Positions 17,644 through 46,765 of a stretch of 64,000 bases of DNA are shown in pieces; within the stretch, counting starts at the first letter, position 1; each line of letters starts with the position of its first letter. The notes beneath the pieces were generated by a model, which saw only the letters and a program-made list of their open reading frames with translations, did no database searches and was not told the origin of the DNA. Source of the DNA: Pseudanabaena sp. 'Roaring Creek' (GTDB lineage: Bacteria; Cyanobacteriota; Cyanobacteriia; Pseudanabaenales; Pseudanabaenaceae); contig NZ_LIRE01000676.1 of NCBI RefSeq assembly GCF_001402795.1, positions 1 to 64,000 on the forward strand. The letters run 5' to 3'. A program made the translations under genes and the position numbers.

Positions 17644-17829
17644 ATGAAAAATGGCGCTCAACTTTGTGGTTGTGACGATTGCAAAAAAAATAAGCGCTCA
17701 AAATCTGATTGCGGTTGTGGTGGTAAGGGCAAGAAATTAGCACAGCCAAAAAAGTTGCTCAAACTTGACTCTACAAAATCCCCTGAATATACCATTGCAT
17801 TCCTGGAAGCCAGAAAGATTTATAGCTAA
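17644..17829 (+). CDS. Small Cys-rich protein, 61 residues
   Basis: The ATG at 17644 follows TAAGGAGAATT. The N-terminal 30 residues are rich in cysteine and glycine (LCGCDDCKK and DCGCGGKG), followed by a lysine-rich stretch. The CxCxxC and CxC spacings suggest metal binding. It is the first plus-strand gene of the head block, five bases before the next start. Confidence 0.6.
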   Translation: MKNGAQLCGCDDCKKNKRSKSDCGCGGKGKKLAQPKKLLKLDSTKSPEYTIAFLEARKIYS

Positions 17830-17833
17830 GAAC

Positions 17834-24290: not shown

Positions 24291-25769
24291 ATGTTTCCTC
24301 GAAAGCAAATGGCTTTTCGCTTTGACGATATATCCAATTTTTTTACTCGCACTGAGGAGCGCGAGGATGGAGTCTATGCTTTTAGCACTATCGCGAGAGA
24401 TGGGTTACTAACTTACTTCACGGCAGAAGGCAAAAGAGTTAATGAACTCCGTCCAGCTTCAGCAAATCGTGATGAGTCTTTTTTAAGTTCTTTACAAGGA
24501 TTACCTGCCACCGTCGAGCATCCTAGAGCGCTACTTACTAACAGAGAATCCTCAGTTGGTGAGTTGGCAGAAAAAGGAAGCTATCAAGACTCTGAAGGGG
24601 TAGTCAATAGTGTATTGCGATTGAAAGACCTTGACGTAGCTGCTAGGGCAAAAAATGGTGAAAAAAGTGGATTAAGTCTAGGTTATAAAGCCAAAATTGT
24701 CGAAACACCTAATGGAGTTTGGTATGACTCTATCGATAACATCACCTACCGAGGAGATTTTGTCGCAGTTCAAACTGAAATTGAGCCAAATCATATTGCG
24801 CTGACTGATTCTGCTAGAGGTGGCAAAGGCGTAAAAATCCATTTCGACAGCGCTAATGTGCCTGTTGGAGAGTATGTGAGGGTCGAAAGATCCGATTCTG
24901 TTTGCACTAAGGAAGTGGGAGTAAGCGTTGTTCAGAAATTGGAAGGTAAACCTATAATGTCCACCAAAACGGTACGGATTGATAATGTTGACTGGGAAAT
25001 TGAAGCTGGAGCTGCGGCAGTTCTCGCTCAAAAGCTTGCTCGGTTAGATACGTTAGAAAAAACTTCGGCAGAATTGGCAGCTAGTCTTCAAGAAGCTGCA
25101 AATTCTTTGCTTGAAAAAGATAAATTATTGGATGCTGCTGTTGGGCGTGCTGATGGTTTTGAAGAAGCGATCGTCTTGATTGGCGATGAGTTAGATCAGC
25201 TTCGTGCGGATGCCAAGAAGGTGGCAGATGACGAGGATGATGACGATAACGATGAGGATGACGATGAGGATGACGATGAGTCATCTACGAAAGATAAGCC
25301 CATGAAGGGTAAAAAGTCTAAAAAGAAAAAGATGGACTCGGCTTCAATCAATGCTTTCTTGCAACGTCCTGAAGTTCAAGAACATATCGGGGAATTTATT
25401 GAAGATGAGATTGGTTCTCGTCTTGATGCATTCACTCGTACTAGCGAACTTCTTGAAGCAAATGGTGTCAGCCTTGAGGATGCTGGCATTACTTACCGAA
25501 TGGACGCTATGACCACTGTTCGTACTGCGATCGCAGTACTGAACAAAAATTCAGACTTCTCGGAAAAGTCGGATGATTACGTGACTGCTCGGTTTGACTC
25601 TTACTACGATTCAATTGGTCAAAATTCCTTACATACTCAAAAGTTTGCATCAGTTGTTAACACAGTTAGAAACGACAGTGCAAACGAATCTAGTCGGAAT
25701 TCGCAACCTCGGAAGGATGCTCGTTCAGAAAACCACAAAAGACCTCTCGCTCTATCTAAGGGGAAATAA
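24291..25769 (+). CDS. DUF2213 prohead protease/scaffold fusion
   Basis: The first 200 residues match DUF2213: RFDDISNFFTRTEEREDGV, SSLQGLPATVEHPRALLTN and a GLSLGYKAKIVET strand. This family is a phage prohead protease-like fold. A helical middle follows, then an extreme acidic stretch near residues 310-330 made of D and E, a lysine-rich patch and a helical C-terminus, which is the usual look of a scaffold domain to be cleaved. The alternative ATG at 24309 gives a shorter start. It precedes the cement and capsid genes in the standard order. Confidence 0.75.
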   Translation: MFPRKQMAFRFDDISNFFTRTEEREDGVYAFSTIARDGLLTYFTAEGKRVNELRPASANRDESFLSSLQGLPATVEHPRALLTNRESSVGELAEKGSYQDSEGVVNSVLRLKDLDVAARAKNGEKSGLSLGYKAKIVETPNGVWYDSIDNITYRGDFVAVQTEIEPNHIALTDSARGGKGVKIHFDSANVPVGEYVRVERSDSVCTKEVGVSVVQKLEGKPIMSTKTVRIDNVDWEIEAGAAAVLAQKLARLDTLEKTSAELAASLQEAANSLLEKDKLLDAAVGRADGFEEAIVLIGDELDQLRADAKKVADDEDDDDNDEDDDEDDDESSTKDKPMKGKKSKKKKMDSASINAFLQRPEVQEHIGEFIEDEIGSRLDAFTRTSELLEANGVSLEDAGITYRMDAMTTVRTAIAVLNKNSDFSEKSDDYVTARFDSYYDSIGQNSLHTQKFASVVNTVRNDSANESSRNSQPRKDARSENHKRPLALSKGK

Positions 25770-26654: not shown

Positions 26655-27569
26655 ATGGCTACAAAAGAAAAAGAAATTCGGATGGATGAGTATACTTTGG
26701 GGGCGTTTAAGGATCAACTTCTTTTCCTTGAACCTCAACTCCTTGAAGAAGAAATGGAGGATCTATATTTCGCTGATGGCACTCTGATACCAATGGAAAA
26801 CCTAGAAATCCCTTGGGCACAAGATACTGCGTATCGCCAGACCACTGGCTTAGGCTCATGGGAAATTGCTAGAGATTACATCACCCATATCCCAATGGTG
26901 GAAACCTTATCTCAAGAGTTTCGCCAAAAGGTGTTTAAGTTTATCGCAGGTTATCGTTACACCGATGACGAAATGATGCAAGCCGTTCATTTGAATGAGC
27001 CGATCGAAGAGTCAAAGATGAAAACAGTTATTACTGCTGGTAATCAAAAACTTGATGATTTGATCTTTAAGGGTGGGGATGGCTTGCAAGGGTTCCTAAA
27101 TCATCCAGACACCCTCAAAATGTATGCGGCTTACCCTATCTCTGCCGCTTCGACAGCAAATCAGATTCTTGCTACTTTGATCAATGGTGAGAATGCGATG
27201 GTCAATCTTACTAGGAACATTGAAAAGCCTGATACGATGCTGATTGCTAAGGTCGCCTATGACTACGCAAACTATGCACAGTTGAATACGATCAATGACA
27301 CTTCAATCCTTGAGTACTACCTCAAGAAAAGTCCATATATCAAAAACGTTCAACCTTTACTGCCTTTAAACGGGGTTGGAGAGAACGGATCGAATGTTGC
27401 CTGTTTATACAAGCGCGACAAATCCAAATTGAAGGCGAGAACTACTGAGTCAATAGGATTCCGTAAGTTTATCCCTACCGCATGGGGCATCGAAAGGACT
27501 GCAACGATGCGCTATGGCGGATTAATCCTTTACCGTCCATATAGCATTCTCTGGATGCATTACATCTAA
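26655..27569 (+). CDS. Major capsid protein (DUF2184 type)
   Basis: Recognised from the phage capsid family DUF2184 by the segments ALPWAQDTAY-like LEIPWAQDTAYRQTTGLGSW, VETLSQEFRQKVFKFIAGYR and PTAWGIERTATMRYGGLILY near the C-terminus. The 304-residue size fits the HK97-fold members. It has a good ribosome site (AGGAGAAAAAC) before the ATG. It follows the cement gene, as expected for a high-expression head protein. Confidence 0.75.
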   Translation: MATKEKEIRMDEYTLGAFKDQLLFLEPQLLEEEMEDLYFADGTLIPMENLEIPWAQDTAYRQTTGLGSWEIARDYITHIPMVETLSQEFRQKVFKFIAGYRYTDDEMMQAVHLNEPIEESKMKTVITAGNQKLDDLIFKGGDGLQGFLNHPDTLKMYAAYPISAASTANQILATLINGENAMVNLTRNIEKPDTMLIAKVAYDYANYAQLNTINDTSILEYYLKKSPYIKNVQPLLPLNGVGENGSNVACLYKRDKSKLKARTTESIGFRKFIPTAWGIERTATMRYGGLILYRPYSILWMHYI

Positions 27570-29621: not shown

Positions 29622-30788
29622 ATGGGTTTAACCAATGCGATCGCTATTTTAAGAAGGCAAGATGCCAAACTAAAGGTTGAAGTCCCTGCTTCACAGCACC
29701 ATAAGGCTTATAGCTATTACAAGGAAGGTCATGAACCCTCAACCCCGAACCCATCGGGCAAAAGGAAAGGTAGGGGTGGCGCGATCGCGGCAGGTATCGG
29801 TGGCGCGATCGCTGGTGGCGCGTTGACAGCAGGAATTTTGGCAATGCGTAGGGGTAAAGCTGGTGAAGAACCTATTGAGCCAAAAGGTTCTCTAAAAGCA
29901 AACAATGATATTGATGCTGATTCTAGGGAAGTTAGCAATGGTATAAAGGGTTCTAGTAGTTCTAGATTACTGGGAGGGGAATCGCGTAAAAAGCCTTTAA
30001 TTACTCCACCTCCAATGAGTAATTCTGACAGAGTATTAGTTACTCCTGCGCCAAGAAAGAGTCTCAAAGAAATGGTTAAAGAGGGTGTTGGTGATGGTAG
30101 CCCATCTAAGCAAAATGCGGGGTTAGCAAAGCCTAAAAGCCTTAAGGATATGGTTCAAGAAGGAGTTAAAGCTCCTTCTACGTCCAAACAAAATGCTCAG
30201 ATAGTGACCGAGAAATCGGAGAATTTATTGACAAAGGGGGTTAAAGCACTCCGTAAATTCTCTAATAAAAATCACTCCGAACAAGGAGTCCAAGCGAAAC
30301 CTAAAAAAAGTTTGTCAGATATGGTAAAAGAGGGGGTTACCACTCCCTCTTTATCTAAGCAAAATGCATCTTTCTCCATCGATCCCGATGTTGGTTCTTC
30401 TGCAACCACACCTAAACGAAAAGGGCTTTTAGATAAAGGCATTGCGGCAATTCGTAAGATGACCAAAGAGGGTATAGATCGCGATCGTAAAGCTGGCGGA
30501 GCATTTGCCGAAAGGGAGGTAGATCTTAATAAGGTTGCCCATACCGCAGGGCAAAAGTCCCGAATTGCTGCCCAGAACCTAACGACATTTGCTAAAGCCT
30601 ACTCTGAAACATTTGGCAAGAAACAACCTAAAGCTGTGGATGTAAAGTCCACAGAAGTCCATGAATCTTTGCCAGAGGGTAAAACAGTGCCAAAACAATC
30701 TACATCAAAAAAACAATCTAAGAAAAAGTCTCCTACTGCGGCAGAGAAGAGGGCTATCCAAAAACAGATCGATGACATTGATAAATAA
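29622..30788 (+). CDS. Repetitive basic protein with glycine-rich hydrophobic segment
   Basis: Unrecognised 388-residue, lysine- and serine-rich protein. After residues 38-44 (PSTPNPS, encoded by the dispersed element) comes a glycine-alanine hydrophobic run GIGGAIAGGALTAGILAM near residues 55-72. Then a 22-residue motif occurs three times: KSLKEMVKEGV...SKQNA near 146, 172 and 229. The first two copies are adjacent; the third follows LLTKGVKALRKF, which is itself repeated later as LLDKGIAAIRKM. The C-terminus is basic. It may be an internal virion or ejected protein; the evidence is only its composition and neighbours. Confidence 0.5.
   Translation: MGLTNAIAILRRQDAKLKVEVPASQHHKAYSYYKEGHEPSTPNPSGKRKGRGGAIAAGIGGAIAGGALTAGILAMRRGKAGEEPIEPKGSLKANNDIDADSREVSNGIKGSSSSRLLGGESRKKPLITPPPMSNSDRVLVTPAPRKSLKEMVKEGVGDGSPSKQNAGLAKPKSLKDMVQEGVKAPSTSKQNAQIVTEKSENLLTKGVKALRKFSNKNHSEQGVQAKPKKSLSDMVKEGVTTPSLSKQNASFSIDPDVGSSATTPKRKGLLDKGIAAIRKMTKEGIDRDRKAGGAFAEREVDLNKVAHTAGQKSRIAAQNLTTFAKAYSETFGKKQPKAVDVKSTEVHESLPEGKTVPKQSTSKKQSKKKSPTAAEKRAIQKQIDDIDK
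29736..29752 (-). repeat. Dispersed 17-bp element, copy 8 (exact, in frame)
   Basis: Exact reverse copy, read as PSTPNPS in the repetitive basic protein, just before its hydrophobic segment. Confidence 0.85.
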
Positions 30789-30861: not shown

Positions 30862-31827
30862 ATGCCAGCATCTACAGAGTACAAGATCGGTAAATTATGT
30901 GGAAGAATGGATTCCGAATCTGTCCTTACAGATATTCGACAAATGCGAATCGATCGCGCAGCTCCTAAATGCGGATCGGGAACAAAACTATGTGGGAATA
31001 GTTGTGTTCCTCAAGCTCATGTTTGCAAGAATCAAGGTGGTGGTGGCGCAGGTGCGGCGATCGGTGCGGGTGCAGCAATCGGTGCAGGGATTGGTATCGC
31101 AGCAGGAATTCATGCTTTGAGGAATCAAAAGCCTAATGCTTTGAGTGGCGCTCCTAAGAAAGCTATTAGTGCTAGAAAAGTTGGAAATAATGTAGTGACA
31201 GATGCCCCTGACGAAAACATTAAATCGGCAGATCCTAATCCAATTAATAATGCAAGGCGATCGGTAAATCGTGCTGCTGGCAACGTGAAAAACAATGTAA
31301 AGAATGCGGCATCCAATGCCCAAGCAAATTCCCCGTTTAAGAAAAAACCTGAGAAGCCTTTAAAGTCAGCAAATATTGACTCACTGATTGGCAGGTTGGA
31401 CTCTTTTTTGCAGGAACGCACCGATTCCCCTAAATGCGAACCAGGCAATAAGCCTTGTGGCAAACGATGCATACCTGAGAAGCATAGCTGTTCTGCGGAA
31501 ACTGCCAAAGGAGCTTTAAATGGTGCTGGTCACGGAGCATTGGGATTGTTAGGGCTGCCTGGTGCGATTGTTAACGGTGCAATTGGCGCTAGAAATGGAG
31601 GAGGAGGAAAAGGTGCGTTCAAGGCGATCGGTAGAGGACTTGCTGGACCAGTTGCAGGGGCGGTTTATGGTGGATTAAGGGCAAGAGGGCATGGTCGAGG
31701 AGCTAGTGCTGCTGCTGGTATTGCGTCAACTATTGGGACTGGTCTAGCTATTCATGCTGGTATCCATGCCGTTCGTAAAATGAAAGAAAAAGAAGATGAG
31801 AAGAAGTCGGGATCTGTAACAAAATAG
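30862..31827 (+). CDS. Four-Cys motif and glycine-zipper protein
   Basis: This 321-residue protein contains the motif C-x6-C-x3-C-x6-C twice: C37-C44-C48-C55 and C192-C199-C203-C210, with the common text CG..C(V/I)P.....C. Each is followed by a glycine/alanine run with repeated GxxxG: GAAIGAGAAIGAGIGIAAGI near residue 70 and AGPVAGAVYGGLRARGHG with further GIASTIGTGLAIHAGIHAV at 280-305. Both ends of the hydrophobic runs finish with IHALRNQK/IHAVRKMK, so the two halves look duplicated. Membrane insertion or metal or disulfide knot formation is inference. Confidence 0.55.
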   Translation: MPASTEYKIGKLCGRMDSESVLTDIRQMRIDRAAPKCGSGTKLCGNSCVPQAHVCKNQGGGGAGAAIGAGAAIGAGIGIAAGIHALRNQKPNALSGAPKKAISARKVGNNVVTDAPDENIKSADPNPINNARRSVNRAAGNVKNNVKNAASNAQANSPFKKKPEKPLKSANIDSLIGRLDSFLQERTDSPKCEPGNKPCGKRCIPEKHSCSAETAKGALNGAGHGALGLLGLPGAIVNGAIGARNGGGGKGAFKAIGRGLAGPVAGAVYGGLRARGHGRGASAAAGIASTIGTGLAIHAGIHAVRKMKEKEDEKKSGSVTK

Positions 31828-31845: not shown

Positions 31846-34800
31846 ATGAATGCATACGAATATTCCAAACTGGCAGCAAGAAACGATGCTGCCAGAAAAT
31901 TAAAGTGTAAACCAAGTTTCAAACAAGTTGGGGCAGCTTGTAAACCTTTAAAAAACAATATAGCTTCTGAGCCTAATAACTCTTTGGGGCATAAAGCAAT
32001 CCTCCCAATGAACGTTTCAGCAGGACTCATACTGACTGCTGGGATAGGAGTTGCGAGCGCTACTATTGCTAATGACGTAAACAATGTAGTCGCAGACGTT
32101 TCCCATTTAGAGAAAACTCCTATCGGGGATAAGTTTGATAAAGTGGCAATCGCCAAAGAATATGACGAAAAATTTAAGCCGGGCGATTTAATTAGAAGCG
32201 CTTTCCCTCTTCCCGTTGGCAAAAATAAATATGCTTATCATTATGCAATTTATGCAGGGAATGGCGATGTTATCGAGTCTGCGCCAGACAAATCTGGCGG
32301 AGCAGGAATTGTAAGAAATTTTGCCCATGATTCTGACACACCTGGCTTAGCGACGACAAAATATGAGTTAGTAGATCTGCCTCCTGATGATGGGACAAGT
32401 CCTATACACTCTCGCGCTCATACTCTTGAGCTAGCTAAAAGCATGGTAGGGTTGCCCTTTAAATTTGACCTTATTGAATCAAACTGCGAAGCTTTTGCTA
32501 GAACAATTGCCTATGGAGGTACAAAAGGCGCACAGAGTGAAAAGGTTAGCAAATTTGGGCTAAAAACGGTTACTTCGGTTTTTGATGTTGTCGATCGCGT
32601 TGCTCTTGGTGGAGTATTGGGTAAAGGAATTCATTCCGACGAAATCAGGAAAACCCTTGAGGATCACAACTATGACCCTGAATTGATTAAAACTATCTTT
32701 AAAAGCAAAATAGATGAGAGACAGAAAGAAATAGCTAAAAAAAGAACTGATTCGGATACAAATCCACTCGCCGATCTAAACGATCCTAAAGAATTTACTC
32801 AGCTAGTTCAACAAGCTTCCTCTAGCTTTCAGGGTGCGGCAAAGCTGATATTTGAGAAAGAGATGTATAAGGTGTATTTGATCGCCTTATTTATGTCAGT
32901 GTCTAAGCCAAGCGCTGAAAGCTCTAGCAAAAAAGATAGTACTGTAGAGGATTTGATTGCCGAAATTCTGCGTAGATCCTCAGTCAGACTGGATACCAGA
33001 GTACTGCACTGCAAATCGGGATATAAGCAGATAGGAAATGCTTGCAAGCCTATCAGAAATACGGCTACGACACAACAATCAAATGGCAGTAATATTGCAC
33101 TCCCGTCGATCGCTAGTACTGCGATTATTCTAGGAGGATTGGCAACTGCTGGCGCAGTCGTCGGTAATGATGTATCTAAACTTAGCGATCCAGAAGAAAT
33201 TAAAAATGCGAGGGTAGTTCCTGCGAATGTAGCTCCGAGCAAAGAAATCCTTGCAGATTACGAGAAAAATTTCAAGAAAGGGGATTTAATTAAAAGGGGT
33301 TTCAAAGGACCTACTGGGCAATATAACTACCATTACGCAATTTATGCTGGTAACGGGGAAATCTTTGAGCTTGCTATGGACAAGTATCGAGGTTCAAGCG
33401 TCCAAAGGAATAAAATCGGTCGAACTACTGAAACAGAAGGACTTGAGTACCAACTCGTCAAAGACCTCCCCAAAGGGGCATTACCAAAATATTCGAGAGA
33501 TAAATCCCTCAAAATAGCAGAGTCTTTAGTTGGAGTTCCCTTTAAATTTGATGGAGTGAGTACTAATTGTGAATATTTTGCTCGATTGGTAGTTGAAGGA
33601 TCTGCAAGAAGTTCACAGATGGAATCTTTAGGTGGATTCACTAAAGTTCTTATTAAAGGATTAATTAAAACCCAGAAAAATCTTAGCGATGGGCATCCAG
33701 TTGAGGAGGTTGCCAAGATTCTTATGGACAATAATTATAATCCTGATTTAATTAAAGCTGTATTTAAAACCAGCGTAGAAAAAAGGCAGCATCAAATAAA
33801 TAATACAAAGGGCATATGGCGAGGGGATAGCCAATCCGAAAATGATATGTTTGCTAACTCAGGAATTAAGTCGCCTCAAGATTTTGTCGATTTAGTTCAA
33901 AAAACATCATCAAATTTTGATGGTGTAGCAAAACAAGCTCTAGAGCAACAAATGTATAAAGCTTATTTGATCGCCTTATTTGCTTTAACCTCACCAAAAA
34001 TATCAAAGATTAAACAAGATAGCTTTGAGATAGCTTCAGATCATCAAAAAATGGTTAGCGCAGTGCTATCAATTATCTCAAGGACTTATGGTGGAATTTC
34101 CACAATTGTTAGCTTAAATCGCAATCCTAATGGGCTTATTACAGTTTATTTCCGACCTTTATCCAATCCGCGATCGCTGATCAAGATGAAAATCGGCAAT
34201 TCAATTTCATACAAAGATATTACGGATCAAAGCGAAAATCGCAATTTCAACTCTGATGTTCGGGTTGATTCATCATATATCTCAGAGTATTTAGCCACTC
34301 AATTAAGGCTAGACAGTATCATTGGTAAGCAGCAGAAAAAATGTGTCAAAGGGACACCATGTAAAGGTGAGTGCATTCCCAGATCTAGTACCTGTGAAGT
34401 CGAACTTGAGAAAGTTATTGATATTCCTACCATTCAAAAGTTAGATCCCCCAACCCCCAACCTCGAACCCAGTAGAATTACTGCTACTGTTGAGCATGAT
34501 ATTTACGACATGATGAATATTCGAGATCTCAAGGAAGAAGCTCGAAAAAAAGGTGTTATGCGATATTCTTACATGACCCAAGACCAGTTGAAATCAGCTA
34601 TTAAAGTTCACGATTCTGACCCAAACTATCAAGAATCAATTAGAAAATCCTTGCAACATCACAAGGATTTAGCAACCCTTAAGAAGACTAAGAATACTGA
34701 AATTGGTAGGGCAATTTCAACAATCAACCCTGCGCTGGGTCGGCAATTTAATTTATTGACGGCTATTAGTAAGAAATTTCAAAATAATCCTACCGAGGCA

Positions 34801-35946
34801 CTTATTTATGCTTTGCCCGCGATCGCTGGTACTACTAAGGTGGTAATGGGGATTTTACAAAAGCAAAGGACATCAAATATCAAAGAAGCTGCTGGTGCAG
34901 CGGTAAATGATGCCGAGGACTATCGCAAAGATATTGATGAGAATAGCAATCCCGATAGCGTTAATTTCTATGTTGGTGGTTATGGTCGAGGTAGCAAAGA
35001 TTTATATAACAAAGTGGCTAACTCTCCACTTGCAAAGGATGAAGATACTGATTGGCTAAAAAAAGGAGAGAACATTCCTATTAATAGGGAAGGTGAAGAT
35101 GTACCTATTGCCCACAACCCCAGCCAAGCACTTGGTAACAATATTACCACTGGCTACAATGTTGTCATTAATAACACCATGAAACGAGGCAAAAGCAAGG
35201 AAGCAGTCGAGCTAGCTGCAAAGCTGTATGCCCAAGGTACAAAATGGCGCACTGATGAGAATGGTATCAAATCTATGCCCTCAATCCAAGTTCTTGCGGC
35301 AGAGGATGGAGGTGTTGTCGCTAGAGATGCGATCGAGATTTTGCAGCAAATGCCGAAAGACCCGACCACTAAATTTCGTGGTAAGGACATAGCCGATCGC
35401 GTCAAATTGGTTACTTTAGGTACGCCTTATTTTGGAGAGACTAAAGCAAATATTCCTGAAGTCAATTTAGTTGGCGACGGAGATCCTTGGGGTTCTTTGC
35501 CATTTAATAAAGGTTCGCAAACCCATCGTGTTACAGGAATTGGTGGTGCTAGTCAGTCTGCTTATACAAGTAGTTCTAACGGTATTGATGCTATCTTCAA
35601 AAATCTTCGATCTGGTTCTGAGAATCGCGGAGTAGTTGATGCCGATAGTGTCAAGGAAGCTGCGTCTGCTCAGAAAAAATCTGAGACCCAACAGGAAAAA
35701 GAAGCTTCCCAAGCCAATGCAGCAGCAGATAGAGCCGAAAGTGATAAAGCTAGGGCTGAGAAACAAGCCCATGTTGACAAGTTAATTCGAGATGAATTAA
35801 AAGCTCATGCTGGCAATAGTATCGAAGAATTAGAACGCTTAATTAAGGACCCAGATGCTTTTGCCAAGGCTAAGAAAAAAGTCAGCGATCGACTTAGAAA
35901 TGAGAAACAAGCTGCGGACTTTGCTAAGAGATCTGGTGTTGCTTAG
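31846..35946 (+). CDS. Tandem LRAT-like protein with a C-terminal lipase-like domain, 1,366 residues
   Basis: Residues about 18-375 and 386-715 are a duplication, 368 residues apart. Each has CK...KQ(V/I)G.(A)CKP at the start, a hydrophobic glycine-rich stretch, then an LRAT/NlpC-like core: YHYAIYAGNGDV with His132 and H496, and SNCEAFAR / TNCEYFAR with Cys214 and Cys575. The second His usual in LRAT is replaced by Glu. A four-Cys motif (from residue 833) and a SAP/Rho-N-like helix pair (IRDLKEEARKKG...LKSAI, near 890) follow. The end resembles an alpha/beta hydrolase (YVGGYGRGS, LVTLGTPYFG), but the nucleophile-elbow serine position is Glu (AEDGG). The C-terminus is coiled-coil. Thioester or acyl-transfer chemistry is inferred. 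Confidence 0.6.
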   Translation: MNAYEYSKLAARNDAARKLKCKPSFKQVGAACKPLKNNIASEPNNSLGHKAILPMNVSAGLILTAGIGVASATIANDVNNVVADVSHLEKTPIGDKFDKVAIAKEYDEKFKPGDLIRSAFPLPVGKNKYAYHYAIYAGNGDVIESAPDKSGGAGIVRNFAHDSDTPGLATTKYELVDLPPDDGTSPIHSRAHTLELAKSMVGLPFKFDLIESNCEAFARTIAYGGTKGAQSEKVSKFGLKTVTSVFDVVDRVALGGVLGKGIHSDEIRKTLEDHNYDPELIKTIFKSKIDERQKEIAKKRTDSDTNPLADLNDPKEFTQLVQQASSSFQGAAKLIFEKEMYKVYLIALFMSVSKPSAESSSKKDSTVEDLIAEILRRSSVRLDTRVLHCKSGYKQIGNACKPIRNTATTQQSNGSNIALPSIASTAIILGGLATAGAVVGNDVSKLSDPEEIKNARVVPANVAPSKEILADYEKNFKKGDLIKRGFKGPTGQYNYHYAIYAGNGEIFELAMDKYRGSSVQRNKIGRTTETEGLEYQLVKDLPKGALPKYSRDKSLKIAESLVGVPFKFDGVSTNCEYFARLVVEGSARSSQMESLGGFTKVLIKGLIKTQKNLSDGHPVEEVAKILMDNNYNPDLIKAVFKTSVEKRQHQINNTKGIWRGDSQSENDMFANSGIKSPQDFVDLVQKTSSNFDGVAKQALEQQMYKAYLIALFALTSPKISKIKQDSFEIASDHQKMVSAVLSIISRTYGGISTIVSLNRNPNGLITVYFRPLSNPRSLIKMKIGNSISYKDITDQSENRNFNSDVRVDSSYISEYLATQLRLDSIIGKQQKKCVKGTPCKGECIPRSSTCEVELEKVIDIPTIQKLDPPTPNLEPSRITATVEHDIYDMMNIRDLKEEARKKGVMRYSYMTQDQLKSAIKVHDSDPNYQESIRKSLQHHKDLATLKKTKNTEIGRAISTINPALGRQFNLLTAISKKFQNNPTEALIYALPAIAGTTKVVMGILQKQRTSNIKEAAGAAVNDAEDYRKDIDENSNPDSVNFYVGGYGRGSKDLYNKVANSPLAKDEDTDWLKKGENIPINREGEDVPIAHNPSQALGNNITTGYNVVINNTMKRGKSKEAVELAAKLYAQGTKWRTDENGIKSMPSIQVLAAEDGGVVARDAIEILQQMPKDPTTKFRGKDIADRVKLVTLGTPYFGETKANIPEVNLVGDGDPWGSLPFNKGSQTHRVTGIGGASQSAYTSSSNGIDAIFKNLRSGSENRGVVDADSVKEAASAQKKSETQQEKEASQANAAADRAESDKARAEKQAHVDKLIRDELKAHAGNSIEELERLIKDPDAFAKAKKKVSDRLRNEKQAADFAKRSGVA
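34454..34470 (-). repeat. Dispersed 17-bp element, copy 9 (two mismatches, in frame)
   Basis: Reverse variant, preceded by an extra PPTP-coding tract; read as PPTPNLEPS in the LRAT protein linker. Confidence 0.55.
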
Positions 35947-37415: not shown

Positions 37416-37709
37416 ATGGAAACCTATATTGAATCAGCGATCGCGGTAATGCTCCCAAAAATCACAGTTCCATCTGGACTGTCTTTAGAAGAAGAATTTG
37501 CTTTGTTCCGTAACAGGGCTAAACCTTTCCAAGTAGAGTTAGTCGATGACGTTCTATTTGTATATCTAACCTACCAAGGTTTGGCTTGGATTCTATGCGA
37601 TCGCCTTATTGCTAATGGTGATTGTCTACTTCATTATTGCGATCGGGTTTTTGTGGTTTTTGGCGATCGGGAACCTGTTCAAATTTGGCTCAACATCAAT
37701 GCCATTTAA
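37416..37709 (+). CDS. Hypothetical protein (unit B), 97 residues
   Basis: The ATG at 37416 follows AAAAGGAGAATAGCT and was preferred over the longer frame, which reads through unit A's damaged copy. The product, METYIESAIAVMLPKITVPS then VELVDDVLFVYLTYQGLAWI and QIWLNINAI at its end, has no known motif. Its 3' part is also found, decayed, next to tnpB at 11324. It precedes the homing endonuclease gene by 53 bases. Confidence 0.6.
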   Translation: METYIESAIAVMLPKITVPSGLSLEEEFALFRNRAKPFQVELVDDVLFVYLTYQGLAWILCDRLIANGDCLLHYCDRVFVVFGDREPVQIWLNINAI

Positions 37710-37762
37710 CTTTTTGGCTGTGCGATCGCGTACAGCTTCCAAATTCTTTAAAGGAGAATATT

Positions 37763-38965
37763 TTGTCTGACATATTAAATCCATTAGAATATTTGCAATC
37801 GCTTCCAAAGTATCCTTTGTTTGCGATTAAGAATAATCATTGCCTGAATCTAAATAATTGTGGAGTATATGCGATTTTTGTCGAACCAAATAACAAAATA
37901 TATATAGGTAGTACGGGAGTTTCTTTCAATAAAAGGCTTAATAGTCACAAGTATCGCCTAAGAAGAAAGATGCATCATACAATTGGATTACAGCATTCAT
38001 TTAATAAATATGGACTTGATTCTTTATTTATATCTATTGTTGAGATTGTAAATAATCAAGATTATTCAAATATTGAGTCTTTCAAGGATGGATTACTTGG
38101 AGTTGAGCAATATTGGATCGACCTAATCCCAAGCAATTTAAGCCTGAACTGTTGTCTGATCGCTGGTTCATCCCTTGGCAGACCTGTTAGAGAAGAAGAC
38201 AAGGTTGTATTATCATTGCTAGCTAAAGAAAGGATGAGAGCAAATCCCCATTTAATAGAGAAAATGGTTGCGGGAACAAAAGCATGGGCTTCTGTTGAAG
38301 AAAATAGAATAGCACTTTCCGAAAGATGTAAAAAATATATGCATTCACCCGAAGCCACAGAACGGAGAAAGGTTTCTTTGCGTTCTGAAAAAACAAAATC
38401 ATTGCAATCTTTGACCACGAAGAAAATGTGGCAAAGACCTAATTATCGTGAGAATATATCCAAAAAAGTCAAGGAATTCTACTCTAGCTCGGTAGGAAAG
38501 GAGATGCAAAGTGCAAAAGGAAAAAAATGGGCATCTATACAAGAGAATAAAGACAGAAATTCCATAAAAATTAAAAAGAGGTTTGAAGATCCTGAATATA
38601 GAAGAAGGAACAAAGAGCATCTAACCAATATGAATCGGAAGAATGCTTATAAAACAAGCGAAAGGAGTAAGGCATTATGGGCGGATGAAGATCACAAAAA
38701 ATTACGCTCTCTCAAAATTCAAAGAGGAAAGGCTAAGAAATCTTTGCCTTTTTGCCTGTACTCACCTAATGGGGAAATTTATGTCACTGATAGCATTACT
38801 GCATTTGCAAAACAGTTTAGTCTTAGTCAGTCCTCTTTGGGTGCTATTGTTCGGGGAGTAAGTAAGTCCCACAAACTTTGGACTGGGACGACCCTTGACT
38901 CATGGAAAAATGTACCTATAGAAGCTATTCGGATACTTTGGGCAGAGCATGATGATCTCCCTTAG
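37763..38965 (+). CDS. GIY-YIG homing endonuclease with NUMOD-type repeats
   Basis: The TTG at 37763 was chosen for the AAAGGAG just upstream. The GIY-YIG domain starts with CGVYAIFVEPNNKIYIGSTG near residue 37, with a conserved Arg and Glu later (LGVEQYWIDLI). The middle has repeated basic motifs (ERRKVSLRSEKTKS, RRRNKEHLTNMNRKN) typical of NUMOD3-type DNA-binding segments. The C-terminus (FCLYSPNGEIYVTDSITAFA then SLSQSSLGAIVRG) is an IENR-type HTH. It appears intact at 400 residues. It has no intron or intein around it, so it is free-standing. Confidence 0.8.
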   Translation: MSDILNPLEYLQSLPKYPLFAIKNNHCLNLNNCGVYAIFVEPNNKIYIGSTGVSFNKRLNSHKYRLRRKMHHTIGLQHSFNKYGLDSLFISIVEIVNNQDYSNIESFKDGLLGVEQYWIDLIPSNLSLNCCLIAGSSLGRPVREEDKVVLSLLAKERMRANPHLIEKMVAGTKAWASVEENRIALSERCKKYMHSPEATERRKVSLRSEKTKSLQSLTTKKMWQRPNYRENISKKVKEFYSSSVGKEMQSAKGKKWASIQENKDRNSIKIKKRFEDPEYRRRNKEHLTNMNRKNAYKTSERSKALWADEDHKKLRSLKIQRGKAKKSLPFCLYSPNGEIYVTDSITAFAKQFSLSQSSLGAIVRGVSKSHKLWTGTTLDSWKNVPIEAIRILWAEHDDLP

Positions 38966-39337: not shown

Positions 39338-39421
39338 AGTATTTCGCTAAATCAGCCTAATTTAATGGCAGTGGCAATGACAGACCGATCATATCGCTAA
39401 ATAGTGATCGCGAAAATCAAA

Positions 39422-42400
39422 ATGTCAGCAACTTCCTCCAATGCCCTTGAGATATTAATTACGGCTAGAGATGATGCTAGTAAACAACTATCCGTAATTT
39501 CAAATGGGATAGGAGATGTTGGGAAACAGTCGATTTTGGCTACAACTGGAATAACCAATTTTGGGGCTAGCCTTGTTAAAGCCGCAGATGGAACTGTAGC
39601 AACAAAGCTTCAACAGATTTCTGGCGCAATTATTGATATAGGGCAGAAATCTCCATCCGCATTATTGGCGACAGCTACTGGATTCATTTCTGTTGTTGGC
39701 GCAATTCAAAATAGTAGTATTGCGATCGCAGCATTTCAAGGAGTAATCGTATCTTTAGAGTCTGGATTGATTGATGCAAAAGCGTCTTTAGTAGATATAA
39801 AGGACAGCTTGATCGATGTTGGGAAAGTATTTGGTGGATTAGATTTACAAAGTAGTGCAACCAAAAATCTTGTAACTACGATCAAAGCAATTGAAGAAGT
39901 TGCTACAAACCCCACGATTATTAAAGCATCCGAGGTAATCAAAGGCTTTTTAAATGACTTAAGTTTTAATGCTGGGCAAAATACTGGCAAAGCATTCCAG
40001 ACCCTTTTTAACTTATTTGATGAGATCTCGGCAACAGCAAAAGCTACTGCCGAAAAAGTCCAATCATTTTTCGCAGGTATCACATTCTTTGAAGATGCAA
40101 AAAATTCTATTAGCGAACAACTAGGGAATATTGACCTAACAAAACTAAAAGACCAGATTGACTCAACTTTCAGTAATGCAAAATCATTTCTGGATGAGCA
40201 ATTAGAGAAGGTTGACTTCTCGGCATTCAAAGATCGATTTGATTCCACTATCGAAGACGTTGGTGTTTTCCTTAAAGAGCAATTAGGGAAAGTAGACGGT
40301 TCGGGGTTGAGGGGCAATTTTGAGAGTGCGATCGCGACTATTGGTTCGTATCTGAACGATCAATTAGGCAAAGTAGACCTAACAGGGCTTAAAGAAAGCG
40401 CTGAGGAGGCATTTAATACAGCCACAGTATTCTTTGATGAACAACTTAGTAAAATTGACTTAACTGGGTTAAAAGAAAGCGCTGAAGGAGCGTTCAGTTC
40501 TGCAAAAGCTTTTCTGGATGAACAACTATCCGAAGTGGATTTTACTGGACTAAAACAAGGATTTGAGTCAGTATTAGCATCGGTTCAAAGTAGTGCGAAT
40601 AGCAAATCGATAGCCAGTGTATTTGAACAGGTATCTCCACAGCTACAGAAAATAGCTAGTAATATTTCAACTACTTTAGGTCCAGCGATTGCTCCTGTTT
40701 TTGAAGGAATCAACAAAGGGTTATCTGAAGCATCCGGTGAAGTAGCAAAATTTCTTTCAAATAGTGGAGTTCTCACAACAACAGAAGTAACTAAAATTCA
40801 ATCCGAGCTTAAAAATTTAGGATCGAACACGATAGAGGTATTCGACCAAATCTTTTCTAGATTCTTTCAGGGAGTTGGGACAGAAGCAAAAACCAATCTA
40901 AAGGTCGTAGAAACAGAAGTTACAGCAGTCCTTGAAACAAGTTTAGGGCAAAAGTTTGCTAAAGCGGGTATCGATTATGGTCAAAAGTTAGCATCTGGGA
41001 TAGAGAGTGCAGTCAATGGAGGGCTAAAAGGAGTTGATGCAATTCTAAATGCCGTTGAAAAAAGGGCAAATGCACTTAGAAATGTTCGAGAGACTTCAGG
41101 ATTTATCCAACAAGCCACCCTTACCCCAGCAAATATTCCTGGCGCAGAAGCATTCGGGAAACTTAAGGAAGAATCAACTAAATTACTTACCAGTCTGAGC
41201 AATGTCGGTCAAGAACTTTTATTCTTAACCTATGGCGTTCAGCAGTTAACAAGTGCGTTTAGCGCTCCTTTCGATATTTTTATTGGGCAAAATATTAGGC
41301 TTCAAGCCACATTATTATCAACACAAGCGCAAATCGTATCTACCAACAAAGTCTTTAAAAATGGGCTTGAGGTAACATCAGCAACCGAGGCAATTCAATC
41401 GCTCGGTGCAGTCTCAAAAAGAACTATTACTGATATTCAAGAAGGGGCATTAAAGTTAGTAGGGTTAGTCTCGACCGACCTAGTCGATCAAATTCTCCCA
41501 GCCGTAACTCAGAACTTGTCCCAATTAGGGGGTAAATTAGGCGATGTGCCAAAACTGGTTACTTCACTTGGCGCAGCACTAGGAACGCTTGGAATACCAC
41601 TTTTTGAGGCGAGAGAATCTCTTTCTCTAATTGCATCGGGAACGGTTACCGTTGAAAATCGACTTGCACGATCTTTGTCGATTACTAACCAACAAGTCAA
41701 TTTATGGAAGTCCCAAGGTAGTTTAATTGACAACCTAACAAAAAGACTACAACCATTCGTCGAGGGTAATGCATTAGCTGCTCAAACTATCGGTGGCGTA
41801 ACGTCAAACTTAAAAGAAGTTTTCCAACTCCTTACTCAACGAGCTGGGGAGACTTTCTTAGATGTTGTTGTTCAAAGATTGAATGTAGTCTATAAATTAG
41901 TCGATATTACTACTGTTGAAGGCAGAAAGAATTTTGAAGATCTTCAAGGTATTGTTGCGGGAGTTGCTAAAAATATATTTGATGGATTTGTTAAATTCGG
42001 TGATGGTGTAGCAGCTTTATTTAAAGCGATCGCGCCAGCAATCGCGGGATTTATCCAAGTTGGTGCTAAAACAATTGGCGATCTACTTAGTTTCGTTGGC
42101 GATACTCTTAAGACATTAGCCGATGGACCACTGAAATATCTATTTGCCGCATTAGGTGCGCTCAGTCAGTTTGCAGATGTGTTCACTGGCATCTTTAAGA
42201 TTGGCTTATTCCTAAAGATACGGGAGGTTATTTTAGGATTGGCTATAGGTGGCATTGGTTTGCTAATCCAAACTTTGCCGGTAGTAAGTACTTTATTTGG
42301 ATTATTTTCTCTACGGTCGAACGGGGCAGTTCTCGCCTTGACAAACTTGCGAGGAGCTTCAAATACAACTGTTGCTTCAATCTTGACATTAGGTAAAAAC

Positions 42401-45400
42401 ATAAATGTAATTCCTGGTGCTTTGCAAGCAGTATCAAAGGCAGTTCCATTCTTAGGAGCAAGTCTAAGTACTTTAATTCCTCAGTTTTCACAAATTGGCA
42501 TTGCCGCGATCGCTTTAGGAGAGAAATTCCCTTTTATTGGTGCAATATTTGAATCGCTTGATACAGCAATCCCTAAATTGATTGCTGGGTTTGCAAGACT
42601 GGCGATCGCAGCACTTGAGACAGCAGATGCATTTGTAGGTGCTGGGGGAGCTTTAGGCGTATTTGCAGAGTTTGCCACTAGCTTTAATACGGAACCAATT
42701 ATTGCTGGGCTAACTAAATTAACGACTATCACAAAATTAAGTGAAACAGGACTCAATTCATTTGGCAAATCTGTAGGAGGGCTTAGATCGACCATAATTA
42801 CATCGTTGGGATCTTTTGCTTTTAGCGCTCTATTATTTGCGGGTGCATTCCAATTGTTTGAGAAATTTCAACCTGTATTTGAAGAAATTGGGAAAGCTGC
42901 CGCAGAAGCATTTGGTCAATTAGTTTTTCTTGCAAAAGTCGTCGTAGAAGGATTGAAAAGCCCTCTTGCACTGGTAGTCACTTTAGGGACAGCCATAACT
43001 TTTCTTGCCTTTGCTATTAGCAACGATTTAATCACTGTTATCGGACGGGTAATCGCATTACAATTTGTTGGTTATCTACAGGCGATCGCGGGCGCACTTA
43101 GTTTCCTAGCAGGTGCAGAAGGCACAGCCAAGGTAGCTGCCGCGATTGAGGCAATGTCTGTAACTGGAGTTGGATCGTTAGCCAAGCTTAAAATTGCCTT
43201 TGTAGAGCTAGTTCCCGTAATCCTAACTGCTCTAGCTCCATTGCTTTTAATTATTGCTGCGCTAGGAACAATTGCGATAAAAGCAAACGAATTCAAACAA
43301 GAAGATGAGATTAATGCAGACAATGCATCAACAGGTCAAGCCGAGCAAGCTGATAACAAAACTTTTTCTCTGTTGGGTAGATCCAAAAAGTCAAAGGCAA
43401 TTTCCGATAAGGCAGCAGGCAGTGGCGTAAAGCTATCGAAAGAACAATATGCCGACAATGCAAAGCTCCAAAAAGAGATTGAGGAACAGATTAACTCGGA
43501 AACGGTACGTAAGGCAGGATTAGAAGAAGGGCTTAATGGTATTTCCACCTCTACGGAAAGAGACAATCAAAATAAAAAAATTAAAGATGCAACTGACAAC
43601 ATCGATCGCCTTAAGAAATCCGTAGAAGGAGTAGAAACCTCCGCGAAGGATTTACCTAAATACGGATCGGCTGTCGAGCAATTTACTCGTAATGTTGACA
43701 ATGCTAAAAAATCATTAATTAATGCATCGGGCGACCCAGCAATATTTAAGCAACAAATCAATACTCTCCTAGAGGGTTCCCAACAACTTCAGGACATGGG
43801 AGCAATCACAGTAGAAGATGCTGTCAAAACCTACAAAGAGATTGCGAGTAATACCAGTGCTGATGCCGAAACCCAGATTAAGGCACAACAGGCTATCACT
43901 GCTGCATATAAATTAGAGTCTCAGAAGCGCATTGCTACCTATGATACTCAGATAGCTAAAACCTCTGCCTTGGTTGCTCAAGGGAGGATTTCAGAGTCCG
44001 AGGCGATCGCGTTAACGTCAAAAGCTAATCTTGATAAATTGAAGGAAGAAGAGGAAGCGATTTCTAAGAGCTATAAAGCCCGTGCTGAAATCATTGATAG
44101 TAATACCAAAAATGCTGTTGATAGTGCTAAGCAAGATCGATTAATTGCTGATGCTAAACTCGCCGCAGCACAAGGAGATCCAACCAAATTAGCAGATATT
44201 AAAGCTCAACAACTAAAGGGAGTAGACGACAAGAAGCAAGCTGTAGAGGATGACTTAAATAAAGCTAAGGCTGAACTGGCTAAGCTAGAAGAGAACAATG
44301 CCCTTGGTTCGCGCACTGGCGAGTCTACAGCCGCAATTGACGAAGCCCACGTAAAAGTCCAGAGATTACAGAACCAATTCGAGAAATTGGCAACATTTAG
44401 AGGGACTCTTGATTCGACGATTAAGATAGATGCTGATGTCCTTAAGGATGTAAAGGAATTACCCAGTCAAATTGAGGAGGCACAGGCTAAGCTTGCTGAA
44501 TTGAAGAAGGGTAGAGATTCCAAAAAAGCGAATTTAGATAAAGAGAACTTCTTCAGTTCCCCGCAGGACAGGAAAGTTGCAAAGGTAAAACTTAAAGAAG
44601 ATGACGATGCAGTAAATGAGCAGGAAGGAGTTGTGAATGCCCTCCAAAGTAGGTTTACCAAAGCTCAAAAAGCTACTACTCCTGACAAGGAAAATGAGAA
44701 AGCTGCCTTGAGTGAAAAGCAATCTGCGATCGATGCAGAGAACAAAGCTGTCGCCAATGGGCAGAAGGTTAAGACGGAAGCTCAACTTGCTGCCGACTCT
44801 GAACTGCAACAGAAACGTGCGGCGATCGCTCAGAAAATTGCCGAAGACCAGATAAAAATCCTTGATTCTCAGATTAAAACTGCCGGAGAAGTCCAGAAAG
44901 TAGGTGAAACGCAACGTCTAGGGGAGATCGCGAAACTGCGGAAACGTGGAGTGATCCTCGAATCTGAGGCGAAATTACAAGAGACTGGTGAGAAAAAGAA
45001 GGAAATCGATCTTGAACTATCTCTCGAACAACAGAAACTTATCAAATTCAACGAACTCGATAAAAAAGGGATTGGTGTCAGCCAAGAAGTGCGCCGAGCA
45101 TCAGTCCTCAAAATTGCCGAGTTGACAAAGCAGCAAACTGAAATCGAGCTTGCTGCGATTGATGGTTTGGTTGCCGCAATCAAGGATCGGCTTACACTTG
45201 CCGCACAACAATACGGCATTACAATTGAGAAACAGAACCTTAAACTTGAAAAGCAGAAGTTACTTTATACTGCCCTTGAGAGGACTCTTGCCAACCAAGA
45301 TCGTTTGGCTCAGTCCTCAAAAAAACTAAACGATTCTGTAGTTGCGGTACATGAATCAGATCTCAATGTTTTAACCAAAATTTATGACAAACAACAACAA

Positions 45401-46765
45401 GCCATCCGTGACGCGGGTGGTACAGGTAATTCTGCCGACAAGGAACTAGAAGAGAAGAAATTACTACTTGCAGAACAGTTGGCAAAGATTAAATTGGAAT
45501 CCTTGCTCCGACAGCAGGTGTTCGAGCGTGAATCACTAGAACGAGATATTCAAAAACGAGATCTGCTCCTAGAACGTCAAAAGCTTGAAAATCAAATCAA
45601 TATAGCTAAGAAAAAAATTGACTTAGCCACTGGTGAAGTTGGTATTAAAACGGCTGAGGAAGAGGTTAAGTTAAAACCCGAATCGGCTGAGGCAAAGCTA
45701 AAACTTGCCCGCGCAAAATTAGATCAACAAAAGAATGAGCTTGAATATGGCGGATTAGTCCAAGAGAGTGGTTTCCTCAATGAGACTGGGCGATTAAATA
45801 AAGAACAGAATGGTCAGGAGCGAGAAACCCTACAAAATAATCAATTCGCCCAACGTACAACTGCAAACGCCGAATTTGCCAGTGCATTGACCGATCCTGC
45901 ATTACAACAACAGTTATTGCAACAAATCGAGGTTCAAACTAAGCAAAGAGCTTTTGGGGTGCAGGGACAAACCCGTATTACTGGCGATCAGGCTAGGGCA
46001 TTAATCAATGCCCCTATACCCGATGTTCGTGGTGCATCCCTTTCCGACCCATCTAAGTATGGGGAGGTCTTGAAGCGATCGGAATCCAACCCTAACGGCA
46101 CGTTAACGACTGAAGCACCCAAGCCAAAGGACAATAGCTTTGCTACCTCATTTGAAGAATTACAGCAAAAATACCCTGACAAGGTCGGTAATATTGACGA
46201 CCTCAATAAAAAGTATGGTGGGAAAGACGCTACTACGTTTGAAGAACTAAATGCTAAATATAGTGGCAAGCCCGCAGATAATGCGGACCCTACAGCAAAA
46301 ATTGGATCTTCCTTCGATAGACTGAACAAACAAATTGATGAAGGCTTTACTAAAGTACTGATTGCCCCTCAGTTAAAGGTCGATGAAATGACATCAGGGC
46401 TTGAGGCTCAATTCAACAAAATCACAACCCAAATCAAGGATAATCCCATCACTATTTCCCTTGATAATTCAGCTTTAGATAAAGCCAAAGCTGAGTTAGA
46501 CAAACCTTTAAAGGTGATCGATGAGGATCAACTTAAAAGGCTTGAAGGTATCTTGGGTGCTTTAAGTCAAGGTGGCAGCAATCTCGATATTAAGACTGCT
46601 GGTGTCAATGCTGCCGGCGCAGGAACCACGACTATAAACGCCCCAATTACAGTAAACAACCCTCAAAATGGGGCTAGCAATGCCCAAGACATCCCCAAAG
46701 CAGTCAGCAATGCCCTAGACTCTGTGCTTAAAAGAGTCGCGAATATCGTAAGTTCTACGAAGTAG
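39422..46765 (+). CDS. Tape measure protein, 2,447 residues
   Basis: The ATG at 39422 was preferred over GTG at 39404 as the product then begins MSATSSNALEILITARDDAS, a common start of tape measure proteins. It is overwhelmingly helical, with hydrophobic patches around residues 900-1300 (several 15-20 residue stretches) that may be the transmembrane part, and heptad-rich Lys/Glu-rich coiled coils from about 1400 to 2100. A six-unit 27-residue repeat occupies 40115-40600. Such proteins set tail length; at about 1.5 angstrom per residue it implies a tail near 370 nm. The C-terminus is Ser/Asn-rich. Confidence 0.85.
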   Translation: MSATSSNALEILITARDDASKQLSVISNGIGDVGKQSILATTGITNFGASLVKAADGTVATKLQQISGAIIDIGQKSPSALLATATGFISVVGAIQNSSIAIAAFQGVIVSLESGLIDAKASLVDIKDSLIDVGKVFGGLDLQSSATKNLVTTIKAIEEVATNPTIIKASEVIKGFLNDLSFNAGQNTGKAFQTLFNLFDEISATAKATAEKVQSFFAGITFFEDAKNSISEQLGNIDLTKLKDQIDSTFSNAKSFLDEQLEKVDFSAFKDRFDSTIEDVGVFLKEQLGKVDGSGLRGNFESAIATIGSYLNDQLGKVDLTGLKESAEEAFNTATVFFDEQLSKIDLTGLKESAEGAFSSAKAFLDEQLSEVDFTGLKQGFESVLASVQSSANSKSIASVFEQVSPQLQKIASNISTTLGPAIAPVFEGINKGLSEASGEVAKFLSNSGVLTTTEVTKIQSELKNLGSNTIEVFDQIFSRFFQGVGTEAKTNLKVVETEVTAVLETSLGQKFAKAGIDYGQKLASGIESAVNGGLKGVDAILNAVEKRANALRNVRETSGFIQQATLTPANIPGAEAFGKLKEESTKLLTSLSNVGQELLFLTYGVQQLTSAFSAPFDIFIGQNIRLQATLLSTQAQIVSTNKVFKNGLEVTSATEAIQSLGAVSKRTITDIQEGALKLVGLVSTDLVDQILPAVTQNLSQLGGKLGDVPKLVTSLGAALGTLGIPLFEARESLSLIASGTVTVENRLARSLSITNQQVNLWKSQGSLIDNLTKRLQPFVEGNALAAQTIGGVTSNLKEVFQLLTQRAGETFLDVVVQRLNVVYKLVDITTVEGRKNFEDLQGIVAGVAKNIFDGFVKFGDGVAALFKAIAPAIAGFIQVGAKTIGDLLSFVGDTLKTLADGPLKYLFAALGALSQFADVFTGIFKIGLFLKIREVILGLAIGGIGLLIQTLPVVSTLFGLFSLRSNGAVLALTNLRGASNTTVASILTLGKNINVIPGALQAVSKAVPFLGASLSTLIPQFSQIGIAAIALGEKFPFIGAIFESLDTAIPKLIAGFARLAIAALETADAFVGAGGALGVFAEFATSFNTEPIIAGLTKLTTITKLSETGLNSFGKSVGGLRSTIITSLGSFAFSALLFAGAFQLFEKFQPVFEEIGKAAAEAFGQLVFLAKVVVEGLKSPLALVVTLGTAITFLAFAISNDLITVIGRVIALQFVGYLQAIAGALSFLAGAEGTAKVAAAIEAMSVTGVGSLAKLKIAFVELVPVILTALAPLLLIIAALGTIAIKANEFKQEDEINADNASTGQAEQADNKTFSLLGRSKKSKAISDKAAGSGVKLSKEQYADNAKLQKEIEEQINSETVRKAGLEEGLNGISTSTERDNQNKKIKDATDNIDRLKKSVEGVETSAKDLPKYGSAVEQFTRNVDNAKKSLINASGDPAIFKQQINTLLEGSQQLQDMGAITVEDAVKTYKEIASNTSADAETQIKAQQAITAAYKLESQKRIATYDTQIAKTSALVAQGRISESEAIALTSKANLDKLKEEEEAISKSYKARAEIIDSNTKNAVDSAKQDRLIADAKLAAAQGDPTKLADIKAQQLKGVDDKKQAVEDDLNKAKAELAKLEENNALGSRTGESTAAIDEAHVKVQRLQNQFEKLATFRGTLDSTIKIDADVLKDVKELPSQIEEAQAKLAELKKGRDSKKANLDKENFFSSPQDRKVAKVKLKEDDDAVNEQEGVVNALQSRFTKAQKATTPDKENEKAALSEKQSAIDAENKAVANGQKVKTEAQLAADSELQQKRAAIAQKIAEDQIKILDSQIKTAGEVQKVGETQRLGEIAKLRKRGVILESEAKLQETGEKKKEIDLELSLEQQKLIKFNELDKKGIGVSQEVRRASVLKIAELTKQQTEIELAAIDGLVAAIKDRLTLAAQQYGITIEKQNLKLEKQKLLYTALERTLANQDRLAQSSKKLNDSVVAVHESDLNVLTKIYDKQQQAIRDAGGTGNSADKELEEKKLLLAEQLAKIKLESLLRQQVFERESLERDIQKRDLLLERQKLENQINIAKKKIDLATGEVGIKTAEEEVKLKPESAEAKLKLARAKLDQQKNELEYGGLVQESGFLNETGRLNKEQNGQERETLQNNQFAQRTTANAEFASALTDPALQQQLLQQIEVQTKQRAFGVQGQTRITGDQARALINAPIPDVRGASLSDPSKYGEVLKRSESNPNGTLTTEAPKPKDNSFATSFEELQQKYPDKVGNIDDLNKKYGGKDATTFEELNAKYSGKPADNADPTAKIGSSFDRLNKQIDEGFTKVLIAPQLKVDEMTSGLEAQFNKITTQIKDNPITISLDNSALDKAKAELDKPLKVIDEDQLKRLEGILGALSQGGSNLDIKTAGVNAAGAGTTTINAPITVNNPQNGASNAQDIPKAVSNALDSVLKRVANIVSSTK
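40115..40600 (+). repeat. Six 81-bp units encoding EQLxxxD repeats in the tape measure
   Basis: Six in-frame units of 27 codons, each starting (E/D)QL..(V/I)D and with a phenylalanine-rich end. In unit 3 the residues GSGLRG come from the dispersed 17-bp element but the unit is still 27 codons. Confidence 0.75.
40297..40313 (+). repeat. Dispersed 17-bp element, copy 11 (one mismatch, in frame)
   Basis: Forward copy with the first G replaced by C; read as GSGLRG in the tape measure repeat. Confidence 0.75.

Follow-up and report, generated by a model that had tools for sequence, protein, structure and literature searches.

Why would a phage carry, among the genes for its virion, a giant protein with two domains of a lipid-enzyme family? 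The question is raised by a gene of Pseudanabaena sp. 'Roaring Creek' contig NZ_LIRE01000676.1, from which positions 1 to 64,000 (the window) were analysed. This uninterrupted open reading frame (ORF) at 31846..35946 encodes 1366 amino acids (aa) on the forward strand, as do all features below unless stated otherwise. An earlier note, made from the sequence alone, had described it as a giant phage protein with two LRAT-like domains and an inactive-looking lipase end. The gene looks like a modular polyprotein rather than one giant enzyme, and as read here the product is a series of tandem units, in each of which an R-x-D site and a Cys motif are followed by a hydrophobic segment and then the cargo domain. 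The predicted cargo consists of two LRAT/PLAAT-fold domains in which Cys and His are kept, and a third, decayed lipase. We lean, by a modest degree, towards the explanation that the protein is a virion cargo polyprotein from which the DUF2213 protease of the phage would free anchored LRAT enzymes for delivery.

The window makes up most of a 66,577-base contig, which has no terminal repeat, in a 5.5-Mb draft genome, and the region is phage, which may be integrated as a prophage or may be a free phage whose contig fell into the bin. The phage is of the CL131/PaV-LD kind, with a DUF2213 head protease, and the order of DUF2213 protease, major capsid protein, DUF4054 head protein and tape-measure homologue is that of Aphanizomenon siphophage CL131. 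The target gene lies between the head genes and the tape measure, the slot filled in CL131 by gp047/gp048, so that the location among virion genes given in the earlier note was borne out.

The Pfam LRAT profile (PF04970) matched the protein at 1.4e-15 (58 bits, against a curated cut-off of 24.3) and was above cut-off in both copies, which were placed separately at 32170..32520 (His132, Glu144, Cys214; 34.2 bits) and 33268..33606 (His496, Glu508, Cys575; 29.8 bits). The repeated core YHYAIYAGNG...NCE corresponds to residues 131-215 and 495-576. On sequence alone, the human PLAAT/HRASLS enzymes were the best solved relatives of the LRAT domain. An AlphaFold2 model of residues 88-245 (pLDDT 74, pTM 0.73) had a permuted papain-like fold, and a Foldseek search of the PDB with this model matched 7zom (E 2.6e-6, TMt 0.79), a PLAAT structure, so that the structural similarity to LRAT anticipated earlier was found. 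No family was matched by the protein in a scan of NCBIfam. The target shares with the LRAT/PLAAT (HRASLS, H-REV107) thiol acyltransferase-phospholipases the permuted papain-like fold, the motifs HY-x-[IV]Y and NCE and a nearby membrane anchor, but differs from them in having Glu in place of the third-residue His, in its duplication within a phage polyprotein, in its Cys-motif tag and in the position of the anchor before the domain.

Across the phage LRAT relatives found, the Cys (in NCE) and the His (in HY-x-[IV]Y) were invariant. The third residue is Glu in both target copies (Glu144/Glu508) instead of the His of the LRAT family, as the earlier note had seen, and all the phage relatives recovered have Glu, Asp or His at this position. 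The invariance of Cys and His, together with the restriction of the third position to these three residues, looks like the pattern of a kept triad. The hint of inactivity that had been drawn from the Glu is not supported: the YaeF/YiiX-like permuted NlpC/P60 enzymes use a Cys-His-Glu triad, and mutagenesis of LRAT suggests that the third residue might be dispensable (PMC3142127). We do not regard a His at this position, which the target lacks, as strictly defining for the family. YiiX is also lipid-binding (PMC3142127); the target differs from the YaeF/YiiX enzymes in that its profile and fold matches are to LRAT/PLAAT and in having Phe for the usual Tyr.

The duplication extends beyond the core, with its own Cys (214 and 575) and own hydrophobic segment in each copy as previously described, to an entire unit of ~370 aa (38 % identity) comprising R-x-D, a Cys pair, the hydrophobic segment, the LRAT domain and a helical tail. 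In unit 1 the two-Cys motif CKPSFKQVGAACKP (residues 21-34, 31906..31947) is followed by a putative membrane anchor (residues 51-75, 31996..32070), and in unit 2 the two-Cys motif CKSGYKQIGNACKP (residues 389-402, 33010..33051) precedes a hydrophobic segment (residues 422-440, 33109..33165), both segments being taken from Kyte-Doolittle plots. Unit 3 has a four-Cys motif, CVKGTPCKGECIPRSSTC (residues 833-850, 34342..34395), and a predicted decayed alpha/beta-hydrolase module (residues 1022-1265, 34909..35640), assigned by homology and a fold model.

This C-terminal module is homologous to modules in phage CL131 and in a relative from IMG/VR. CL131 gp048 contains three alpha/beta-hydrolase modules, two with GHSAGG, the last, with AHGYGG, being the counterpart of the window module; the CL131 module homologous to the hydrolase end of the target matches Pfam DUF900. 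The window module reads AAEDGG where intact modules have GHSAGG, with Glu1153 in the Ser column and Ala in the His column, in agreement with the earlier statement that the nucleophile Ser is lacking. A model of the module (pLDDT 67.5) matched lipases and cutinases (6nkc, E 8.9e-4). From its sequence the hydrolase end looks like a decayed, dead lipase-like module, because Ser and His are both lost. The possibility that an Asp has taken over as nucleophile was rejected, since Glu occupies the Ser column and the His is lost too.

No close relative of the LRAT part was found among 50,697 named phage records, where the C-terminal part alone had a match, in CL131, and tblastn of short motifs against named phages gave little besides CL131. 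Scans of IMG/VR with the whole window protein and with an alignment of the units found no relative; the IMG/VR relatives described here were obtained by motif scans and by scans with relatives. One of them, contig 3300027878_000003 (L062, 67 kb), encodes a 1988-aa protein with two tag-anchor-LRAT units and helical tails as in the target, followed by several R-x-D-S repeats and then a GG-x-YLRK tag and hydrophobic segments. This protein contains 12 R.D[AS] against 1.6 expected, placed at the borders, and its gene lies directly upstream of a DUF2213 protease gene (phrog_530 3.9e-56; DUF2213 1.2e-31) whose product has 14 RxD. The LRAT copies are 46-49 % alike within each protein and 30-35 % between the target and L062; the duplication was therefore independent or the copies have been homogenized, and going by these sequences LRAT duplication may have arisen more than once.

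The target contains six R.D[AST] sites (0.9 expected), at residues 12, 300, 381, 659, 806 and 821, which are the unit borders and matching places after each LRAT domain. The putative processing sites are RND/A before unit 1 (residues 12-14, 31879..31887), RTD/S between LRAT 1 and its helical tail (residues 300-302, 32743..32751), RLD/T before unit 2 (residues 381-383, 32986..32994), RGD/S at the same place in unit 2 as RTDS in unit 1 (residues 659-661, 33820..33828), and RVD/S (806-808) and RLD/S (821-823) before unit 3 (34261..34314). The RxD-richest ORFs were mostly head-maturation proteases with fused scaffold-like regions, and the DUF2213 protease of the window, identified by its profile match (24291..25769, with an acidic scaffold-like region), has 13 RxD against 3.1 expected; the corresponding figures for PaV-LD are 15 and 4.0. 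An R-[ML]-D lies within the first 11 residues of the capsid proteins of the window (26655..27569; RMD at residues 9-11), CL131, PaV-LD and S-CBS4.

Before PaV-LD was tested, the idea had been put on record that the DUF2213 protease processes its substrates at R-x-D-(A/S). The structural proteins of PaV-LD contain 22 R.D[AS] against 4.9 expected (z 8.0); without the protease the count is 13 against 4.1. Its 44 non-structural proteins contain none (3.7 expected). R.D followed by any other residue, D.R, R.E and K.D showed no excess in PaV-LD, and Nodularia phage 2AV2, which has another type of capsid protein, had no excess of R.D[AS] (3 against 2.8). Many of the IMG/VR contigs are near-duplicates picked by the RLDK pattern; PaV-LD and S-CBS4 were not so selected. 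Residues 1-26 of the phage T1 capsid protein are unmodelled, which is compatible with processing and is no evidence for it. A limited literature search found no report of an RxD prohead cleavage site.

The same sites could be read differently. R-x-D and the Cys motif might together bind scaffold or capsid as a tag for docking or encapsulation, in which case the protein would stay uncut and form a structure inside the particle or in the neck. The two are separated by a few residues and could belong to one small domain, and some units are separate genes, for which cutting would be unneeded. However, RxD is also frequent in the protease/scaffold and near the capsid N-terminus, where the Cys motif is missing, the residue next to D is preferentially Ala/Ser, as would suit a cut site, and sites 300 and 659 of the target are far from any Cys motif, at the border after LRAT. 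We consider such a tag rather unlikely, at roughly one chance in four.

Several observations weigh against the reading of the target as a cleaved cargo polyprotein. The membrane anchors were assigned from a hydropathy plot. Since the target and CL131 are where the motif was first noticed, the R-x-D statistic of the target is in part post hoc. One in six of the mapped four-Cys motifs had no RxD upstream; that 32 of the 38 such motifs had RxD within 30 residues upstream (4.6 expected) counts in favour of the reading. Phage phiAC-1 showed no RxD excess and Rtp had single K/R-x-D sites near N-termini; the R-x-D code is therefore not universal among DUF2213 phages. Finally, both window copies have Phe where a Tyr would be expected, a few residues ahead of NCE; at this position most relatives have Trp and L062 has Tyr.

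The cargo polyprotein reading draws further on related phages, in which the LRAT and hydrolase units examined come after a Cys motif and usually a hydrophobic segment, and the tag-anchor-LRAT order recurs in independent phage loci. Four-Cys tags such as CKVGKPCGDICIPKKNEC are present in CL131 gp044, gp045, gp047 and gp048. CL131 gp047/gp048 share with the target the genomic slot, the Cys tags, the RxD sites and the homologous last module, whereas their cargo consists of alpha/beta hydrolases, two with intact GHSAGG, and includes no LRAT. In the IMG/VR relative L005, gp047 is fused to a further hydrolase unit and a DnaJ domain lies within the gp048 homologue, and a Thermosynechococcus metagenome-assembled genome has the two-Cys form RLDKxCGxSxI...C ahead of LRAT and DnaJ. 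A scan of IMG/VR DNA for R-L/F-D-K-x-C-G-x3-I-P gave 37 stretches, with the motif mostly in frame and often in several neighbouring genes. Among 64 proteins, nearly all motif-bearing, kinases and DnaJ were matched by seven proteins each, LRAT by five and alpha/beta hydrolases by about four. The 'RLDKKCG' motif was not found in the literature by a limited search. These patterns may point to a general cargo code in DUF2213-protease phages, for which we judge the chances about even: varied enzymes (LRAT, lipases, DnaJ, kinases) would be strung together by R-x-D-(A/S) cut sites, Cys-motif tags and membrane segments, cut in the prohead and delivered, LRAT being a recurrent payload.

Other tagged proteins were noted in the course of this work. 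ORF061, 065, 078, 079, 080, 081 and 085 of PaV-LD share one four-Cys tag (YNCGxACI type; YSCGKSCI in ORF085), with RxD just upstream of it in most of the seven, a set hitherto unrecognized. L050:2484-5417 and similar IMG/VR proteins are Cys-tagged virion-region proteins with protein-kinase-like domains, which suggests delivered kinases. CL131 gp044 (L002:9277-9957) and L005:7743-8435 are Cys-tagged with a THNHP motif, and their post-tag region differs between phages. We take this motif to be reminiscent of JAB/MPN-type peptidases; a Pfam scan of the two proteins gave no JAB/MPN-type match.

With respect to the activity of the LRAT units, they might instead be enzymes of the NlpC/P60 kind, which would hydrolyse peptidoglycan or protein and so breach the cell wall as the phage enters. 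Cell-wall enzymes are common in virions. NlpC/P60 and LRAT form one superfamily (PMC3142127), and the Pfam NLPC_P60 profile scored 22.5 bits on the target, marginally below its cut-off of 23. Yet the PDB fold matches of the LRAT model at E < 1e-3 were exclusively PLAAT/HRASLS catalytic domains, that is, lipid enzymes; lipid enzymes also agree with the hydrophobic segment next to the domain and with the permuted order, in which His precedes Cys, and lipase-like units occupy the same slots in related phages. A wall hydrolase seems improbable on these grounds, and the virion-borne lipid enzyme that the earlier note had offered as a possibility is supported as such. Equally improbable is that the LRAT units are late-made toxins, superinfection-exclusion factors or non-catalytic binding modules instead of virion cargo, as the dead hydrolase unit in the same protein and the Phe in place of Tyr might suggest, since Cys and His are invariant and the third residue is polar in divergent copies, the decayed hydrolase showing what relaxed constraint looks like here, and the gene sits within the head-to-tape-measure cassette beside other tagged genes.

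If the target is a cleaved cargo polyprotein, the DUF2213 protease would cut it during head maturation after R-x-D, with Ala, Ser or Thr as the next residue. The predicted products are the hydrolase piece, helical linkers and, from about residues 15-302 and 384-661, a pair of LRAT enzymes with membrane anchors, all of which would remain in the particle and leave with the DNA at ejection. The LRAT units would then insert in the host membrane and attack the acyl groups of membrane lipids or lipoproteins by a thiol mechanism based on Cys-His-Glu, acting as phospholipase A or by acyl transfer; the benefit would probably be easier genome entry or a change of the envelope early in infection. The computed basis consists of the unit architecture, predicted fold, kept catalytic residues, site enrichment and synteny, from which we infer that the protein is cleaved, located in the virion and ejected, as well as what it acts on and how the phage benefits. 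Cleavage, packaging, ejection and membrane insertion are proposed because of the analogy with two systems: SPN3US gp245 cuts after A-X-E with Ser preferred next (PMC10052503), and the head protease of P1 removes an N-terminal piece from DarA, which is ejected with the DNA (PMC12810830). The proposal shares with DarA and the SPN3US head proteins processing by a head protease at a short motif, packaging and ejection (PMC12810830, PMC10052503), but there it is mostly an N-terminal propeptide that is removed, whereas the target would be tandem cargo separated at R-x-D. The main text of the CL131 paper, whose MS table is supplementary, does not list gp048.

The combination of several disparate domains in one phage polypeptide, here two LRATs and a hydrolase module, is shared with the polyvalent proteins (Iyer et al. 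2017, PMC5512222), which have been proposed to be injected and processed and in which a zincin is common but not obligatory (PMC5512222). Searches of Pfam, PHROGs and NCBIfam gave the target no match to a zincin metallopeptidase or to any other domain catalogued for polyvalent proteins, and the words LRAT, lipase and transmembrane are absent from that paper (PMC5512222). The LRAT domain belongs to a known family; a limited literature search turned up no case in which it serves as duplicated, tagged cargo of a phage polyprotein with putative processing.

The neighbouring gene at 30862..31827 has two RxD plus four-Cys motifs and Gly/Ala-rich hydrophobic segments and is likely to encode another tagged cargo protein, and 29622..30788 encodes RQDA at residue 12 and one Gly/Ala-rich hydrophobic segment. 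The homologue of the CL131 tape-measure protein is at 39404..46765; an ORF with a GIY-YIG nuclease domain (37622-38965, forward strand), between it and the LRAT gene, is possibly a homing-type insertion. Farther upstream, an 847-aa ORF (17765-20308, forward strand) has RMDE, then CPSRAGFVCVADPRVKGGHYYRK, then a hydrophobic segment. Its tag resembles the repeated G-x2-WV-x-D-x-RV-x-GG-x-YLRK tags of L062 and may be another kind of tag belonging to this cargo system. On the reverse strand, 53285-55774 encodes an 829-aa protein with strong TPR repeats and a weak NB-ARC match at the cut-off, which could be a host STAND-type protein at a prophage edge or a carried defence-like gene.

If the cargo polyprotein reading is true, it would account for a group of giant virion genes that are labelled 'hypothetical' in phages of cyanobacteria and in further aquatic phages. 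It would also point to a cleavage code that can be read for part of a large family of proteases, one DUF2213-type member of which was matched by 1460 named phage records, and would mean that phages carry LRAT/PLAAT-type lipid enzymes, which are better known from animal cells and viruses of eukaryotes.

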